A stretch of 38,351 nucleotides of DNA from Clostridia bacterium (GTDB lineage Bacteria > Bacillota > Clostridia > Oscillospirales > CAG-272), in assembly GCA_017517745.1 (NCBI GenBank), contig JAFWYJ010000015.1, positions 1-38,351 of the forward strand. The letters are read 5' to 3'. The translations under genes were made by a program, and so were the position numbers. Within the stretch, counting starts at the first letter, position 1, and every line of letters begins with the position of its first letter. The notes below the pieces were generated by a model. The model did not search any database and had not been told where the DNA came from. It saw only the letters and a program-made list of their open reading frames with translations. Of the stretch, positions 29,006-36,143 are shown one piece after another.

Positions 29006-29034
29006 ATTATAGCATGCAAATCGGTTTCTTTCAA
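29006..29034 (-). promoter_or_regulatory. Promoter of prfB
   Basis: On the minus strand TTGAAA (29034-29029), a 17-bp spacer and TATAAT (29011-29006). It lies just past the rlmH stop, so prfB has its own start although read-through from the TerB operon is possible because no terminator is seen between them. Confidence 0.85.
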
Positions 29035-29055: not shown

Positions 29056-29535
29056 TTATTTATGATAGCGCGTGCCCTTCATGATCGAGAAGGAGCGGTA
29101 AAGCACCTCAAGCAGCAAGGGACGCATCATCTGGTGCGGAAAGGTCAGCTTGGAGACCGACAGGCGCATCTGACAAGCCGACTTGACCTCCTCGTCAAGT
29201 CCGTGCGACGAGCCGATGACAAGGCAGAGATTGCCGCATTCGTTCAAGGCACTCTCGAGTCGACTTGCCAGCTCCTCGGACGAAAGCTGCTTCCCTTCCA
29301 CGCAAAGAGCCACGCGAAAGGATTTTTGCGGCATGGCGACAAGGATCCTTTTTGCCTCGTCGGCAAGCGCCGCACGGATCTCTCCCTCGCTCGGGTTCTC
29401 CGGAAGCTTCGTCTCCTTGAGCTGGACGATGCTCGGCTTGCAAAAGCCGGAAAGGCGTTTTTCATATTCGGCAACCGCGTCTCTCCAATAGGACTCCTTC
29501 AGGTTGCCGACGGTGATGACCGTGACCTGTATCAA
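29056..29535 (-). CDS. rlmH: 23S rRNA pseudouridine1915 N3-methyltransferase RlmH
   Basis: This 159-residue protein, the usual length, begins IQVTVITVGNLKESYW and ends with the SPOUT knot signature: CLVIGSSHGLDEEV and FPHQMMRPLLLEVLYRSFSI followed by KGTRYHK. The usual GGS-x-G is GSSHG here. It methylates pseudouridine 1915 in the decoding-centre helix 69. The start is TTG, overlapping the walJ stop by 4 nt, with GGGAGG upstream. Last gene of the TerB-BrxD-helicase operon. Confidence 0.92.
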   Translation of the reverse strand: MIQVTVITVGNLKESYWRDAVAEYEKRLSGFCKPSIVQLKETKLPENPSEGEIRAALADEAKRILVAMPQKSFRVALCVEGKQLSSEELASRLESALNECGNLCLVIGSSHGLDEEVKSACQMRLSVSKLTFPHQMMRPLLLEVLYRSFSIMKGTRYHK

Positions 29536-30329
29536 AGCATGCTCCCTCCCATCAGCTCGGTAATCGCGTCGGGCTGTGCCACACAGATGCGCACGCCCTC
29601 GTCCCCAACGGCACCGATACATTCGTCGTAGGCAGTATCGGGGGTATTGTTTTCTTGACTCAAGTGTGCCAGCATCAGATATTTCGTGCCCGCGGCGCAA
29701 AGACGAGCGGCAAACGCCGCGCTCTCGGGATTGGACAGATGTCCGCGACGCGATGAGATCCGCAGCTTGAGATCGTAGGGATAGGGCCCGTCTCGCAGCA
29801 TATCGGGATCGTGATTGCTCTCCAGAACCACCGCCTCACAGCCCAAAAGCCCCGCTTCAACCTCGCGTGAGACGTAGCCGATGTCGGTCGCGTAGCCGAT
29901 GCGGAAGACGCTTCCGTCCTCGCGCGGGATCTCGATGTGATAGCCCACGGAGGCGCGGCTGTCATGCGGCGTCGGAAAGGAGGTGACGGTCATGCCCGCC
30001 ACCGTTTCGCAAAAGATCGGCGGATGCTCACAAAGACAAGGCGCGACTCTTTCTTCGCAGGAAAGCTTGTAGGCGCAACCCGTGGGAAGATGTACCGGAA
30101 TCTTATGCCGTTTGAGAAGCACGGCGAGCGCGCCGACGTGGTCGTTGTGCTCGTGAGTGATGAAGATCGCTTTCAGCTCCTCGGGAGACACCCCCGCGTC
30201 AGCGAGCGCCGCGCAAAGCTTCTTCGCGCTTTTTCCGGCGTCGATCAGAATGCTCCCCTCCGCGGTCGAGATCAGGCAGGCGTTGCCCTGCGATCCCGAA
30301 TAGAGCGATACAATCCGAATCTCCTTCAT
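29532..30329 (-). CDS. walJ: MBL-fold hydrolase, YycJ/WalJ family
   Basis: This 265-residue metallo-beta-lactamase-fold protein has SLYSGSQGNACLIS at its N-terminus, the zinc motif THEHNDH (58-64), a later metal His in FPTPHDSR, and GYATDIGYVS then LESNHDPDML. It matches YycJ/WalJ, a predicted nuclease linked to DNA repair and replication termination, commonly next to rlmH in Gram-positives. The ATG overlaps the stop of the three-TM gene by 4 nt. Confidence 0.9.
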   Translation of the reverse strand: MKEIRIVSLYSGSQGNACLISTAEGSILIDAGKSAKKLCAALADAGVSPEELKAIFITHEHNDHVGALAVLLKRHKIPVHLPTGCAYKLSCEERVAPCLCEHPPIFCETVAGMTVTSFPTPHDSRASVGYHIEIPREDGSVFRIGYATDIGYVSREVEAGLLGCEAVVLESNHDPDMLRDGPYPYDLKLRISSRRGHLSNPESAAFAARLCAAGTKYLMLAHLSQENNTPDTAYDECIGAVGDEGVRICVAQPDAITELMGGSML

Positions 30330-30706
30330 GCGAACATCCTCTCAAAATACGGAAAAATGAACAGATAAACCATGTCTGCCAAAAAGGTCAGAAGGATGGG
30401 CACGACCAAAGTCAGTGTCCAGCGCGACTTTTTCTCGCGCAGCTTGGCATCCTCGATCAACCTCTGTTTCTCGATCATGCTCAGGTGTGACGGCGGCATC
30501 TCCGGCGTGGCGTTCTTGAACACGAAGCCGCGGTTGTAGATCACGTAATAGAGCGCAAAGATCACACCCACGACCAGATAGATCGCCGGCAAATATTCAA
30601 AGTGCCACTGTGTCGGAAGCCAAAAATAAAGAAAGATCATAATGACGGAATTGATCAAAAGAAAAATCAAAACCCTCTTGGTTTCAGCGGTGACTTCTTT
30701 TTTCAT
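30326..30706 (-). CDS. Three-TM membrane protein of unknown function
   Basis: This 126-residue protein has membrane segments at about 11-30 (RVLIFLLINSVIMIFLYFW), 40-58 (AIYLVVGVIFALYYVIYN) and 98-118 (TLTLVVPILLTFLADMVYLF). A charged cytosolic loop between the last two contains MPPSHLSMIEKQRLIEDAKL. Its ATG overlaps the helicase stop by 4 nt and its stop overlaps walJ by 4 nt, so it is translationally locked into the operon between the helicase and walJ. I do not recognise the family. It might tether the module to the membrane, but that is conjecture. Confidence 0.75.
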   Translation of the reverse strand: MKKEVTAETKRVLIFLLINSVIMIFLYFWLPTQWHFEYLPAIYLVVGVIFALYYVIYNRGFVFKNATPEMPPSHLSMIEKQRLIEDAKLREKKSRWTLTLVVPILLTFLADMVYLFIFPYFERMFA

Positions 30707-32949
30707 AACATTTCTCCTTCGGTTTCGTATTCCCGCTCGATCTCAAGAAGCCGTGCCTCGACCTCTCTGACGTTGAGCTTGTCGAGGGCGTAGGCTCGCC
30801 GCAAAAGATCCGACGGGACGTAATCGTCATATTTTTCAAACACGGGAATCTCTCCGCCCGCCACCAGCTCCTCGGCGTCGATCCCGCACGTTCTGACCTC
30901 GTCCGCCATGCAGGAGATCAGCTCGACGTCACTGCCGCGCGACATCTTGAAGGTGATGAAGCAGCAGCCCTCGTACTCGATCCCCGTGATCCCGAACGCT
31001 GCGGCGTGTCGGGCAAGTGTCTTGCGCATGGCACGGAAACCGCGCGTGCCGAGCCACGGAAAGAGGCACCACGAATATCCGCCCAGATGCACGAGCGAGT
31101 GTCGCAGCATTCCCGTATTTCTCGCCACGTGGCGCGCGACGTCAAGCCTTTTTTGCGCGTTGGGCTTGAGATAGGGATAGACGGTATCCTCCTCAAGCAC
31201 CCGACGCATCCGTTGCACGATGCGCGTGTGGATCTCTCCGAGATCTCCCGGCCAGGAGACCTCCATTTTTCCCGCGACGCTTTTGACGTAGATCAGTCGG
31301 TGCTGAATATCCAGCTCCTCCACCTCCCACACGCGTCCCGCCAGCGCAAATCGGTCGCCCACGGGGGGAGGCGTTGTGATGGTGCCGATCTCGTCCGAGC
31401 CGCAGCGCACGGTATAGTCCTCGCTGTCCTTGAAGACCGCGTAGAATTTGAACGAGCGCAAAAGCCGCTCGCCCGCGAGTCCCACGATCAGCGTCTTTTC
31501 CTCGGTCATCTCCAAAAAATCGTTGTTGAGCATCGAGAGGATCAGTGCCTTATAGTCCTCCCGCGGCACCTGTGCAAACGGCGGCAGGGCCAGCACGCGC
31601 TCGGCAAGCCTCTTTGCGGTCAGCTCTCCCGACGATGCCAGCACGCTCAGCGTTTGATGGAACAGCAGACTGTACGGCAATTTTCGCAGCGCGGGCGGCT
31701 CGATGAATCTCTCTTCGATATAAAGCTGCACGATCGCGATCGCGCGAAGCAGCTCCCACGGGATCAGTTGCGGAAGCGGCGTGTTGGGAAGCGGATCCTC
31801 CTCACGAAAGACCATCATCATCTCGGGCGGCTGTCCGCGTCTGCCCGAACGTCCCAGACGTTGCAAGAAGCTCGTGACCGAGTTTGGCGACTGATTTTGC
31901 AGGATCCGTTCAAGTCTGCCAATGTCAATGCCAAGCTCCATCGTCACCGTCGCGCAGGTGACGGCAACGCAGTCCTCGTCCTTCATTTTCAGTTCGGCTT
32001 CCTCGCGGATCGATGCCGAAAGATTGCCGTGATGGATCAGAAACACGTCGCTGTCTCCGCGGTTTGCGGCAATCTGCCGAAAGGTCGCGCACAGATATTC
32101 GGTCTCCTCGCGAGAATTGGAAAAGACCAGCGATTTCTTGTCGCGGACACAGTCGTACATATAGGAATATCCCGCGTCGTAGGCGACTGGCGAGGCAGGT
32201 CCTTCGGCGTCATCTTTCGGCTCGACGCTCTGCATGGTTTTGGCGTTCTGAATGTAAAAATGTTCCATGCCGAGCCGCCAGCGGATCTTTCCTCCCTCGA
32301 AGCGCGGCGCGACGGTCTCGCGTCCACTTCCCGCGCCCAGCCAATCCGCCACCTTTTGCAGATCTCCCACGGTTGCCGAAAGCCCGATGCGGCGGGGATG
32401 GTGTCCGATGAGTCTGCCGATGCGCGCCATCTGACACAGGATCTGATTGCCGCGATCACTGCCCGTCAGGGTGTGGATCTCGTCGATGATGATATAACGC
32501 AGGTCTCCAAACAAGCGCACGATGTCATTGGAGCGATTGATGAGCATCGACTCCAGCGATTCGGGCGTCACCTGCAAAATCCCCCGTGGGTTTGCAAGCA
32601 GCTTCTTTTTGTGGGATTGCGCCACGTCGCCGTGCCAATGCGTCACGGGGATCCCACTCTCGTCCAAAAGCTCCTCCATACGCCAGAACTGATCGTTGAT
32701 CAGGCTCTTGAGCGGCGCGACGTAAAGCACTCCCACGCTGGCGGGCGGATTTTCGCAAATCTCTGCCAGAATGGGAAAAAACGCCGCCTCGGTCTTGCCG
32801 CTTGCAGTGGACGAGGTCAGAAGCAGATTGGCATCGCTGTCAAAGATCACCTCTGCCGCCGCGACCTGCACCTCGCGCAACGTTTCCCAATTGTGCGCGT
32901 AGATATATTCCCGGATGAAATCGGGAAAGCGTTCAAATATCTTACTCAT
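30703..32949 (-). CDS. Lhr-like SF2 DEAD/DEAH helicase (BrxHI-like)
   Basis: This 748-residue superfamily 2 helicase has a Q-type REVQ (25-28), Walker A STASGKT (47-53), motif Ia YVAPLKSLIND (76-86), QVTPESLE (126-133), DEIH box (156-159), GLSATVGD (189-196), CATVTMELGID (332-342) and motif VI QRLGRSGRRG (363-372). The C-terminal 350 residues are the winged-helix and beta-rich region of Lhr-like proteins. It starts 36 nt after the BrxD-like gene. Lhr-like helicases of this size pair with BrxD in type 2 BREX (Pgl) loci, where they are named BrxHI. Its likely job is to remodel nucleic acid for the BrxD-TerB partner proteins (inference). Confidence 0.85.
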   Translation of the reverse strand: MSKIFERFPDFIREYIYAHNWETLREVQVAAAEVIFDSDANLLLTSSTASGKTEAAFFPILAEICENPPASVGVLYVAPLKSLINDQFWRMEELLDESGIPVTHWHGDVAQSHKKKLLANPRGILQVTPESLESMLINRSNDIVRLFGDLRYIIIDEIHTLTGSDRGNQILCQMARIGRLIGHHPRRIGLSATVGDLQKVADWLGAGSGRETVAPRFEGGKIRWRLGMEHFYIQNAKTMQSVEPKDDAEGPASPVAYDAGYSYMYDCVRDKKSLVFSNSREETEYLCATFRQIAANRGDSDVFLIHHGNLSASIREEAELKMKDEDCVAVTCATVTMELGIDIGRLERILQNQSPNSVTSFLQRLGRSGRRGQPPEMMMVFREEDPLPNTPLPQLIPWELLRAIAIVQLYIEERFIEPPALRKLPYSLLFHQTLSVLASSGELTAKRLAERVLALPPFAQVPREDYKALILSMLNNDFLEMTEEKTLIVGLAGERLLRSFKFYAVFKDSEDYTVRCGSDEIGTITTPPPVGDRFALAGRVWEVEELDIQHRLIYVKSVAGKMEVSWPGDLGEIHTRIVQRMRRVLEEDTVYPYLKPNAQKRLDVARHVARNTGMLRHSLVHLGGYSWCLFPWLGTRGFRAMRKTLARHAAAFGITGIEYEGCCFITFKMSRGSDVELISCMADEVRTCGIDAEELVAGGEIPVFEKYDDYVPSDLLRRAYALDKLNVREVEARLLEIEREYETEGEML

Positions 32950-32985
32950 TTAAAACCTCGTTTCGGTCTGAAAGCGGATTTTTTC

Positions 32986-34365
32986 TCAAAACTCGATCTC
33001 GTCGATCGAATATTTCCTCGGTGCCGTCTCGGATGCACGCTCCGCCTCTTCCTCTTTCTCACCGTCATCGGAGTCGGTTTTGAGCGTCACCGCGCTCCCC
33101 ACCACCGATTCGAACGAGGCGTTTGGATTTTGCATCAAAATATTGAGCACGGTCATATAGTCGCGCAGCATCTCACGCGGCGTGATCATGCTGTCCGCCC
33201 CCGCACGGCCGAGACAGATCTTCAAAAATTCGACCATCTGCTCCTGTGTGATGCGCGGTTCTTCTCCGTAATTCTGCGCGTAGAGCTTGGTCACGCGGCT
33301 GATCAGCGCGAACAGCTCGTCATCGGAAAGACGGCGCAAACGAATGACGGGACCGATCAGATTCTTGAAGCCCTCCAGGGCAAATCGGCTGTCGCAAAGG
33401 CGGCTTCGGAGCGCCTCGTAGCTGAAAAGTCCGCGACGCGTATCCTCCAAAAACTGCGGCGTACCGCCCAAAATCAGCGCCAAGCCCTCGGCTCTTCCCT
33501 GCAGGGTGTCGTTGAACATCGAGAGGATTTTTTCATAGTTGTTCTCGCGGCTGACGCGATGCGAGATCTTGTAAAGATTGACACACTCGTCAATGAAAAC
33601 CACCAGACCGCGGTATCCCATCGCGCGCGCAAGCGCCGCCCAGAGCTTGAGAAAATCGTACCAATTGTCATCGTCAATGATGACGGACACCTGAAATCCC
33701 AGCTCGCGTCTCGCTTCGCTCTTGGTGGAGTATTCTCCGCGCAGCCAGCGCAGGCAAGCACTCTTTCGCTCGTCGTCTCCGTCTGTATAAGCGCGATAAT
33801 ACGCCGTGACCACGCGCGCAAAATCAAACCCGCCGACCAAAGACTCGATCTCTTGCATGGTGCCGAGCACCTCGCGCTCCAAAGCAGTTGAAAAGGCTGC
33901 GGAATTCGCTGAAATTCCGGACGCGACCACGCGTCCCTGAAGCGTGGTGATCCAGCGCGCGATGACGCGAGGCAACGCCCCGCCGTCGGGAGATGCCTTC
34001 GACGCGAGATTTTTCATCAGCTCGCGATAGGTCGCCACGCCGCTGCCTCCCGTACCGTAAAGACGGCGTTCGGGTGAAAGATCGGCATCGGCGGTCAGAA
34101 AATCGCGCTCGAGCGCGTAGCCGCGAATGAGCTGCATCAGAAAGCTCTTTCCGCTTCCGTAGCGTCCGATGAGAAAGCGCATCGTACCGCTCCCCTCGTT
34201 CACCGCCTCCAGATCCGACAGCATCGCCGCGATCTCGTCACGTCTGCCGATGGCGATATAAGGCGCACCCGCGCGCGGGACAACACCCGCCGACACCGAA
34301 GCCAGAAGCGAGGTCAAAATACGCTTCGGCACCTTGGGAACCTGATATTCTTCGATTCGTTCCAT
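32986..34365 (-). CDS. BrxD-like P-loop ATPase (DUF2791)
   Basis: This 459-residue AAA-type ATPase has Walker A GRYGSGKS (67-74), Walker B GLVVFIDE (253-260), a sensor-like ILGGTPQFLEDTRRG (298-311) and SYEALRSRL, the signature of the DUF2791 family that includes BrxD. The C-terminal 40 residues are acidic and look disordered before RKYSIDEIEF. BrxD occurs in type 2 BREX (Pgl) systems. It lies 21 nt after the TerB-like gene with AAAGGAAAG upstream. In this window there is no PglX, PglZ, PglW, BrxC/PglY or BrxL, so it belongs to a smaller module with TerB and the helicase. Confidence 0.88.
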   Translation of the reverse strand: MERIEEYQVPKVPKRILTSLLASVSAGVVPRAGAPYIAIGRRDEIAAMLSDLEAVNEGSGTMRFLIGRYGSGKSFLMQLIRGYALERDFLTADADLSPERRLYGTGGSGVATYRELMKNLASKASPDGGALPRVIARWITTLQGRVVASGISANSAAFSTALEREVLGTMQEIESLVGGFDFARVVTAYYRAYTDGDDERKSACLRWLRGEYSTKSEARRELGFQVSVIIDDDNWYDFLKLWAALARAMGYRGLVVFIDECVNLYKISHRVSRENNYEKILSMFNDTLQGRAEGLALILGGTPQFLEDTRRGLFSYEALRSRLCDSRFALEGFKNLIGPVIRLRRLSDDELFALISRVTKLYAQNYGEEPRITQEQMVEFLKICLGRAGADSMITPREMLRDYMTVLNILMQNPNASFESVVGSAVTLKTDSDDGEKEEEAERASETAPRKYSIDEIEF

Positions 34366-34386
34366 ATTCTCTCTTTCCTTTCGTCA

Positions 34387-36054
34387 TCATCCTTGCCCGA
34401 TCAACGCCGCAAGCGTCTCCCGATAATCCTCGATCACGGCGTAGCCTTCGCCGTTCTCCTCCAACAAAATATCTCCCAAAAGATCGGCGGCAAGCGCATT
34501 CACCTCGTCCACCAACACCTCAAGCGGCACACCCGCCGCACTCGCTGCCGCGCGCTGTTCCGCAAAATCCTCTTCGCGGATCGCGCCAAGGAGCGCAAGA
34601 TAGGGCTTCCATGCCCCGCTGTCCTCGCTCGGAGCTTCCTCGGCAATCGGTGGTTGTGCGGGAATCTGCGGCTGTGTCGCCGTCTCTGCGCGCTCACCGT
34701 CTGCCGCCTCCTCAAACGCCTCGACCAGGCGCTCGGTGGTGTCCCACGAAAGCCGTTCGATCTCTGCCGCATCCGAAAGTGAAAAATCCTTTCGCGGCAA
34801 ATCGTAAAGCCGCTCGTATTCCGCCTCTCGCGCCTCCTCGCGCTTTTTTTTCGTACTTGCCGCCTCCTTTGCGGGCAACAGCTCGTCCAGCACGCGATCC
34901 AACAGCGCACGGATTTCCGTGGGGAGCGCGTAGATCGAAAGGCGCGAACGGACTCCAAAATGCGCGCGCAGACGGTTTTCGGTATATTTGACCACGTCGG
35001 TGATCAGATAACGAAGCTCGTGCGATCGGGAAAACGAGCAGAACTCGACCTCGATGCGCCGCTTGATGCGATAGGAGCAGAGCGCTCCGGCGTATGCGTC
35101 GCGCACAAGTCTGCTGTCATCCATGCCGACCATGAGAAAAGGCTTTCCCGCCTCCGAGGTGTGCGATGCCACGGCGCGCAGGGCGCAGGCAACCGCTCTG
35201 TCATAGGTCTTCTGACGCTCGGGCGTGCAGAATTTGCTCTTGCGGTGATCATAGTTCGAGCAAAAGGTCAAAAGCGCGCGCACGGTAACGTCCGCATCCC
35301 CCGCGGGAACGTAAAACTCCTTGAGCGTGCAATGCGACATCACCTCTCGAAGCAGGCTTCCCACGCAACTCTCGGGCGGCGGCAGACGGTGGATCAGACT
35401 AAAGTCGCAGATCCACTCGGGCAGGCAGCTGTCGAGCTGAGGATAGGTTTTGCGATAATTCACCCACACGCGGCACAACAACTCTTGCGACCGCCTTGCA
35501 TCGGTCTCGCCAGACAGATTGATGATCTCATAGACAAACAGCAAAACGTAGCTGTAATCGCACGCAAGGCAATCCCCCTGCCGCAGATTCTCGCGCCACC
35601 ACAGATACCATTCGAGCTGCTGCCGCGACATCTGCGAATACTGCGGAACGTAGGAAAAGAAGGGAACGCGCAGACACTCGACGCCTTTGACGTCACGAAG
35701 CCGCATCGCATCGCGCGCAAAGCTTTCGTAGTAGCGATAATTACTCCGCCAGCGGAAGAGCCTGACGCGGTGGATCAGCGCGTTTTCGGGAATATACTCT
35801 TCGTCTGCCGAAGGACGCTTTTCCTCCTCCGCGGTGTGCGGCGGAATGAAACGGCGGCGCGGCTCCTCCCCGGGAGCGGGGATCGGAATTTCTCGCGATC
35901 GACTTTCCGCCGTTTTTTCCGGCACGTCGACCGTGATCTCCACGGGATCGGTATCGCTCGGATAGCGCGGTGCCCGCTTTGGCGGAATCAGCGCGTCAAT
36001 ATCCCAAAATCGGTCCACATCCTCAGCGCGTTTCTTTTTTTCGTCGCGGTCCAT
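34387..36054 (-). CDS. TerB-N / TerB-C domain protein
   Basis: This 555-residue cytosolic protein has a disordered, charged N-terminus of about 90 residues. The TerB-N block follows: YSQMSRQQLEWYLWWRENLR (139-158) and YSYVLLFVYEIINL (167-180). A long helical middle contains FCSNYDHRKSKF, and a TerB-C-like end carries IERLSWDTTERLVEAFEE and, in the last 75 residues, WKPYLALLGAIREEDF and VDEVNALAADLLGDILLEE. No intact metal-binding TerB core is obvious. TerB-N/TerB-C proteins occur in Ter stress and DNA-processing gene neighbourhoods. It is the first gene of the operon, with a strong AGGAGGGGAGAG site and consensus promoter. Confidence 0.82.
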   Translation of the reverse strand: MDRDEKKKRAEDVDRFWDIDALIPPKRAPRYPSDTDPVEITVDVPEKTAESRSREIPIPAPGEEPRRRFIPPHTAEEEKRPSADEEYIPENALIHRVRLFRWRSNYRYYESFARDAMRLRDVKGVECLRVPFFSYVPQYSQMSRQQLEWYLWWRENLRQGDCLACDYSYVLLFVYEIINLSGETDARRSQELLCRVWVNYRKTYPQLDSCLPEWICDFSLIHRLPPPESCVGSLLREVMSHCTLKEFYVPAGDADVTVRALLTFCSNYDHRKSKFCTPERQKTYDRAVACALRAVASHTSEAGKPFLMVGMDDSRLVRDAYAGALCSYRIKRRIEVEFCSFSRSHELRYLITDVVKYTENRLRAHFGVRSRLSIYALPTEIRALLDRVLDELLPAKEAASTKKKREEAREAEYERLYDLPRKDFSLSDAAEIERLSWDTTERLVEAFEEAADGERAETATQPQIPAQPPIAEEAPSEDSGAWKPYLALLGAIREEDFAEQRAAASAAGVPLEVLVDEVNALAADLLGDILLEENGEGYAVIEDYRETLAALIGQG

Positions 36055-36114: not shown

Positions 36115-36143
36115 ATTATATCACGCTTTCCCGTCTTTGTCAA
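36115..36143 (-). promoter_or_regulatory. Promoter of TerB-BrxD-helicase operon
   Basis: On the minus strand TTGACA (36143-36138), a 17-bp spacer and TATAAT (36120-36115). A TTTGAC-CG-TCAAA dyad at 36080-36092 in the early transcript could be an operator. Confidence 0.88.

Follow-up and report, generated by a model that had tools for sequence, protein, structure and literature searches.

A complete Shango operon in an uncultured lineage of Clostridia, apparently inherited vertically within its genus

Shango is a bacterial defence against phages, also reported in Millman 2022, that combines a TerB-type protein with an ATPase and a DNA helicase. The present work deals with three adjacent genes, sngA, sngB and sngC, located at positions 30703 to 36054 of the reverse strand in a 38,351-nucleotide stretch of DNA (hereafter, the window) of a Clostridia bacterium from the order Oscillospirales, GTDB family CAG-272. 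The window is a whole contig (JAFWYJ010000015.1, C11 in our numbering) of a 2.17 Mb genome assembled in 62 contigs and 97% complete. Judged by its sequence, the trio is a complete copy of the published system. In Pseudomonas aeruginosa Shango resides in a defence hotspot; that of strain PA14 joins an ATPase and a DEAD/DEAH helicase to a TerB-like protein and gives modest protection, 10-100-fold on plates, from many, though not every one, of the phages tested (Johnson 2023, PMC10250203). SngC has been classed with BrxHI, DruE and DpdJ in the Hachiman paper (PMC12278908). An ATPase and a helicase of the same kinds, encoded by linked genes, make up the BrxD-BrxHI pair of type 2 bacteriophage exclusion (BREX) systems, for which a loader-helicase relationship has been proposed (PMC12839542). 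TerB-type components are found also in the Dionysus and Bunzi systems (PMC12926258, PMC10952713), which are likened to Shango here by description, not by sequence. No published mechanism of Shango was found in the literature searched, and a search combining TerB-N/TerB-C with DUF2791 returned nothing relevant.

The window proteins cover all three PADLOC Shango models over most of their length. The SngA model is matched at 6.5e-57 (192 bits, residues 90-552 on positions 67-527 of a profile of 528), the SngB model at 8.7e-170 (563 bits), the SngC model at 7.3e-243 (806 bits). The preliminary description of this DNA had reported three adjacent genes in one orientation, with gaps of 21 nt (sngA-sngB) and 36 nt (sngB-sngC), behind one consensus promoter; coordinates, Pfam matches and promoter score all bear this out, and the same three proteins are encoded in one operon as in the described system. 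In Pfam, SngA matches TerB_N (76.3 bits) and TerB_C (27.3 bits, cut-off 26.3), SngB matches BrxC_BrxD (530 bits), SngC matches DEAD (95.6 bits) and Helicase_C (54.8 bits). Alignments were made on hand-chosen sets of 28, 39 and 36 sequences (A1, A2 and A3, respectively). The Walker A (G67, G72, K73, S74) and Walker B (D259, E260) residues of SngB are invariant across 28 aligned sequences, and the helicase motifs of SngC are intact. Activity of the window trio against phages is predicted from this identity. Searches by sequence among solved structures gave no firm relative of SngA (the best hits, MarR proteins, reach E 0.022) and, for SngB, only a weak match to YtrE (E 0.0024). The structure model of SngA yielded weak fold matches; its C-terminus is perhaps a winged helix.

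The relatedness of SngB to BrxD, and of SngC to BrxHI, would suit a type 2 BREX (Pgl) locus reduced by the loss of pglX, pglZ and brxC. Yet the Shango models outscore the BREX models of PADLOC two- to threefold (BrxD reaches 175 bits on SngB, BrxHI 408 bits on SngC), and SngB stays, at 174 bits, below the cut-off of 350 of the curated NCBI BrxD model NF033438. PglZ (PF08665) has no match in the genome, genome-wide searches not having been aimed at PglX, PglW, BrxL or the Ter kinase; PF10923 matches once, at sngB, and there is no second BrxC/BrxD gene. In addition, unlike the BREX pair, the trio has a TerB-type partner: sngA adjoins sngB in 62 of the 66 loci discussed below, and the trio with SngA is conserved in many genomes. 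Taken together, higher Shango scores and lack of PglZ argue that this is not a broken BREX locus, a candidate which was rejected and to which we assign next to no probability. The absence of PglZ, and of any BrxC besides sngB, first noticed in the window, extends to the whole genome. The TerB_N and TerB_C domains of SngA could denote a Ter-type stress module, directed at tellurite or metals, with the TerB protein as effector. This is very improbable, since the partners of SngA are DNA motors and TerD (PF02342) has no match in the genome, on which ground a Ter stress operon was discarded.

The three genes are co-conserved, as a survey of their neighbourhoods, advised in the preliminary description, confirmed. 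At E values up to 1e-90, SngB was identified in 69 of 297 genomes of the order and in none of 14 control genomes; a phylum-wide draw gave 22 positives out of 398, the window included. Positives number 23 among the 38 genomes of the window's family and 46 among the other 259 of the order, a split counted from a table in which 208 negative genomes were assumed to lie outside the family, since the list runs by kinship. Three of the 69 genomes, with genes on other or cut contigs, were left out, and 66 loci were examined. sngA resides on the same strand, at most 780 nt upstream of sngB, in all but four of them (in these four it was not sought elsewhere in the genome), and sngC at most 950 nt downstream in 55. 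Among 80 named GTDB loci, mostly from metagenome-assembled genomes of herbivore-gut Clostridia, sngA was found in 71, sngB in 78 and sngC in 54, several stretches ending at contig ends.

In the 11 remaining loci sngC is not adjacent to sngAB, yet each of these genomes carries a SngC match on a different contig. This search, extended to three more genomes, was positive in 14 of 14 (491 to 912 bits), with a model that at its E limit matches also 6 of the 14 controls. In some of the 11 loci sngAB runs within 13 nt into alaS (G226, scanned; G183, by eye), or is followed by a SpoU-type methylase gene after 21 nt (G112), or by an RNase Y gene after 540 nt (G064, scanned) or 229 nt (G041, by eye). 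Identities of SngB and SngC covary (rho 0.81 over 21 genomes of the family, G090 and G190 excluded), also in the 90 pairs which include an unlinked genome (rho 0.68).

Additional genes occur in or next to several of the surveyed loci. An EutH gene (ethanolamine-type permease) and/or a PHP-domain gene lie between sngB and sngC in genomes of the same genus (L084:1616-2710, L067:9551-11472, L070:8377-10361, L069:2548-3420), and a PHP-type gene is found two genes past sngC in another genus (L082). Tandem sngC genes follow sngAB in family f20 (L169, L181, L184, L188). In G150 and in four genomes of f17 (L086:11017-16056, L160, L167, L170, L171) the gene right behind sngC is very large and encodes a PDC-S37/Hhe-like helicase, with a MTES nuclease domain at the C-terminus in L086; this helicase is possibly a fourth Shango part. 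Large genes follow sngC also in L172 and L174; they are unconfirmed as PDC-S37/Hhe relatives, and the cut L174 piece has no PADLOC match. In the window genome a PDC-S37-like gene (G000:C54:47683-50349) carries a stop within its match. RecQ-type helicase genes follow sngC in family f7 (L090:7128-8969 and L155:1831-3672, by eye; L157:9512-11410, scanned), overlapping it by 4 nt in L090 and L155. Upstream of sngA, a methyltransferase-like gene recurs in L065, L069, L070 and L081, all of the same genus; two copies were scanned and gave no Pfam match above cut-off.

Shango in the window lineage looks vertically inherited within the genus. SngC was found in 24 of 35 genomes of the genus, the window's included. 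In a tree of 85 SngC rows (quick method, Shimodaira-Hasegawa-like approximate likelihood ratio supports; 6 of 91 rows, short or duplicate pieces, dropped beforehand) the 22 rows of the genus form one clade, with support 100. Across the genus and two near genera, pairwise identities follow those of the host protein WalJ (rho 0.72 for SngC, n=19; 0.74 for SngB, n=18; 0.87 for SngA, n=17; p 0.001); within the genus alone (17 genomes) the value for SngC is 0.46, the partial G004 and G017 having been left out before the genus tests. In the family, too, inheritance looks largely vertical. The tree groups 41 of 43 family rows, together with two f6 rows, in one clade with support 99, and 15 of 16 genera with at least two rows are, by eye, single clades, the exception being g87. 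G090 and G190 fall outside the family clade, a sign of transfer. Family-level Mantel tests against prfB gave weak agreement; without these two genomes, dropped after the tree was seen, the values rise, SngC reaching 0.33 (p 0.013) and SngB 0.41 (p 0.001).

Within the genus, genomes hosting SngC have a median size of 2.2 Mb and those without it one of 1.5 Mb (p 0.0005), size being confounded with assembly completeness. Type I HsdR was found in 9 of 69 genomes, all chosen for SngB; no HsdR tree was made, and the count shows only patchiness. The window genome has one such gene (G000:C53:12159-12818).

The preliminary description had argued for a stable chromosomal position rather than a mobile island. 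The chromosomal, non-mobile part of the claim fits the lineage, which differs in this from the P. aeruginosa hotspot and from other bacteria, where relatives of the genes are common on plasmids: of 72,556 plasmid records, 533 carry a relative of SngC (404 of these predicted conjugative) and 677 one of SngB (538 predicted conjugative), counts which may include BrxHI and BrxD. No SngB relative was found in phages at 1e-10. The stable walJ-rlmH site, in turn, had to be abandoned. walJ was found in 19 of the 24 SngC genomes of the genus, and is adjacent to sngC in three only (the window, G027, and also G004); the remaining 16 have the two on different contigs, some of which are short. In G004 the locus is split: one contig holds a C-terminal piece of SngC beside the three-transmembrane (3TM) gene and walJ, and a second ends with sngAB and the remainder of SngC; no exact overlap of the two contig ends was found, and the junction is presumed. 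In G007, G036, G019 and G025 the walJ operon has a galactokinase-like gene, and no Shango, in front of it; the window genome has its copy of that gene on another contig. The walJ site is therefore particular to a small clade. In these four genomes 3TM is kept between the galactokinase-like gene and walJ, with one extra gene in G025, and so belongs to the host operon.

Table 1. Features of the window discussed in the text
Feature	Positions	Strand	Description
sngA promoter	36115..36143	-	consensus TTGACA-17-TATAAT with extended -10; sigma-70 type, TG before -10 box, 12/12 matches; upstream of sngA
sngA	34387..36054	-	555 aa; TerB_N/TerB_C protein, Shango subunit A; PADLOC and Pfam
sngB	32986..34365	-	459 aa; AAA+ ATPase, BrxC/BrxD family, Shango subunit B; PADLOC and Walker motifs
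sngC	30703..32949	-	748 aa; Lhr-like superfamily 2 (SF2) DNA helicase, Shango subunit C
3TM	30326..30706	-	small protein, three hydrophobic stretches (by eye); host walJ operon, not Shango
walJ-like	29532..30329	-	metallo-beta-lactamase-fold hydrolase; Pfam Lactamase_B_2 60.5 bits; host operon; named walJ in the preliminary description
rlmH	29056..29535	-	Pfam SPOUT_MTase 161 bits; presumed TTG start, read from DNA; host operon
second promoter-like site	29006..29034	-	strong, 11/12 with TG; in front of prfB

As described earlier, 3TM, walJ and rlmH follow sngC with 4-nt overlaps; read from the DNA, these are ATGA (sngC/3TM and 3TM/walJ) and TTGA (walJ/rlmH, with the TTG start). The rlmH frame 29056-29700 (214 aa) is too long, the start being presumably at 29535. 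The overlaps suggest that in the window genome the three genes probably share the sngA promoter. 3TM has no Pfam family above its cut-off; of 60 genomes, 53 have relatives of WalJ. Regardless of score, the scan gave 5 promoter-like sites over 8.8 kb where shuffles gave 3.3, so that the sngA promoter is distinguished by score alone. Of 79 loci, 47 have a promoter of at least 11/12 near the sngA start, 33 among the 40 of the family and 14 among the 39 outside it, against 0.76% of mononucleotide shuffles; some low rows may stem from over-long sngA frames.

Strong promoter motifs, vertical inheritance in the genus, the clustering of nearly all family SngC rows, the separation of sngC from sngAB in a sixth of the loci and the higher conservation of SngC over WalJ within the genus (81% against 63%) may indicate that Shango has been domesticated, and in this family mainly helps to maintain the chromosome (through replication restart, recombination or repair), phage defence being secondary or lost. 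Downstream genes in single genomes of the order (uvrA, nrdR, recQ, a DEAD_2 helicase, an exonuclease with a BRCT domain, alaS) point the same way; the scanned neighbours, however, are 10 picked by eye, with no background rate. Against domestication, 15 of the family's 38 good genomes and 11 of the 35 genomes in the genus yielded no Shango, which is hence hardly essential, though some assemblies are incomplete. SngA evolves fast, SngB and SngC slowly, which makes SngA the likely recognition subunit, and suits a role in defence. Domestication seems on balance unlikely.

We rather favor, with good confidence, the view that the trio is a complete Shango belonging to an uncultured lineage of Clostridia, most named relatives of which come from herbivore guts: a chromosomal operon, vertical at least within the genus, probably constitutive, set in a small clade before 3TM, walJ and rlmH. 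Best supported by the sequences are the identity of the three parts, the intact ATPase and helicase motifs, the co-conservation and the vertical inheritance in the genus. The mechanism is inferred. SngB, a BrxD-type AAA+ ATPase resembling ORC/Cdc6, would load SngC on DNA and activate it; SngC, the Lhr-like helicase, would be the motor acting on invading or abnormally replicating DNA; SngA, by its helical TerB_N part and possible winged-helix C-terminus, would pick the target and couple it to SngB. The roles assigned earlier to the TerB protein (adaptor) and the BrxD-like protein (loader) gain support, as does a motor role for the helicase, there named effector, while all staying inferred. Since no recognised nuclease is present in the trio, blocked replication or stripping of phage DNA would be likelier outcomes than cleavage by the trio itself. 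The Mycobacterium smegmatis Lhr (PDB 5v9x), also counted among the nearest known counterparts, is a repair helicase, and no partnership of it with SngA- or SngB-like proteins is known.

The preliminary description had envisaged a minimal module for defence or genome maintenance. The trio does stand alone, is probably defensive and no BREX remnant; it is not new, being Shango. The observation of a known system was sound, and what remains of interest is that within one bacterial family Shango is resident and at times scattered, a state on which no paper was found, judging by titles and the opening of abstracts. More speculatively still than domestication, Shango may have become a resident genome-maintenance machine in this family of gut Clostridia, a constitutive Orc/Cdc6-like loader with a Lhr-like helicase and a TerB-type targeting subunit, scattered because no longer a travelling cassette, and mobile Shango its exported form. 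A vertical lineage, a separable sngC and a conserved strong promoter motif offer a natural test of whether the three proteins act as one complex, and whether they may have a housekeeping role.
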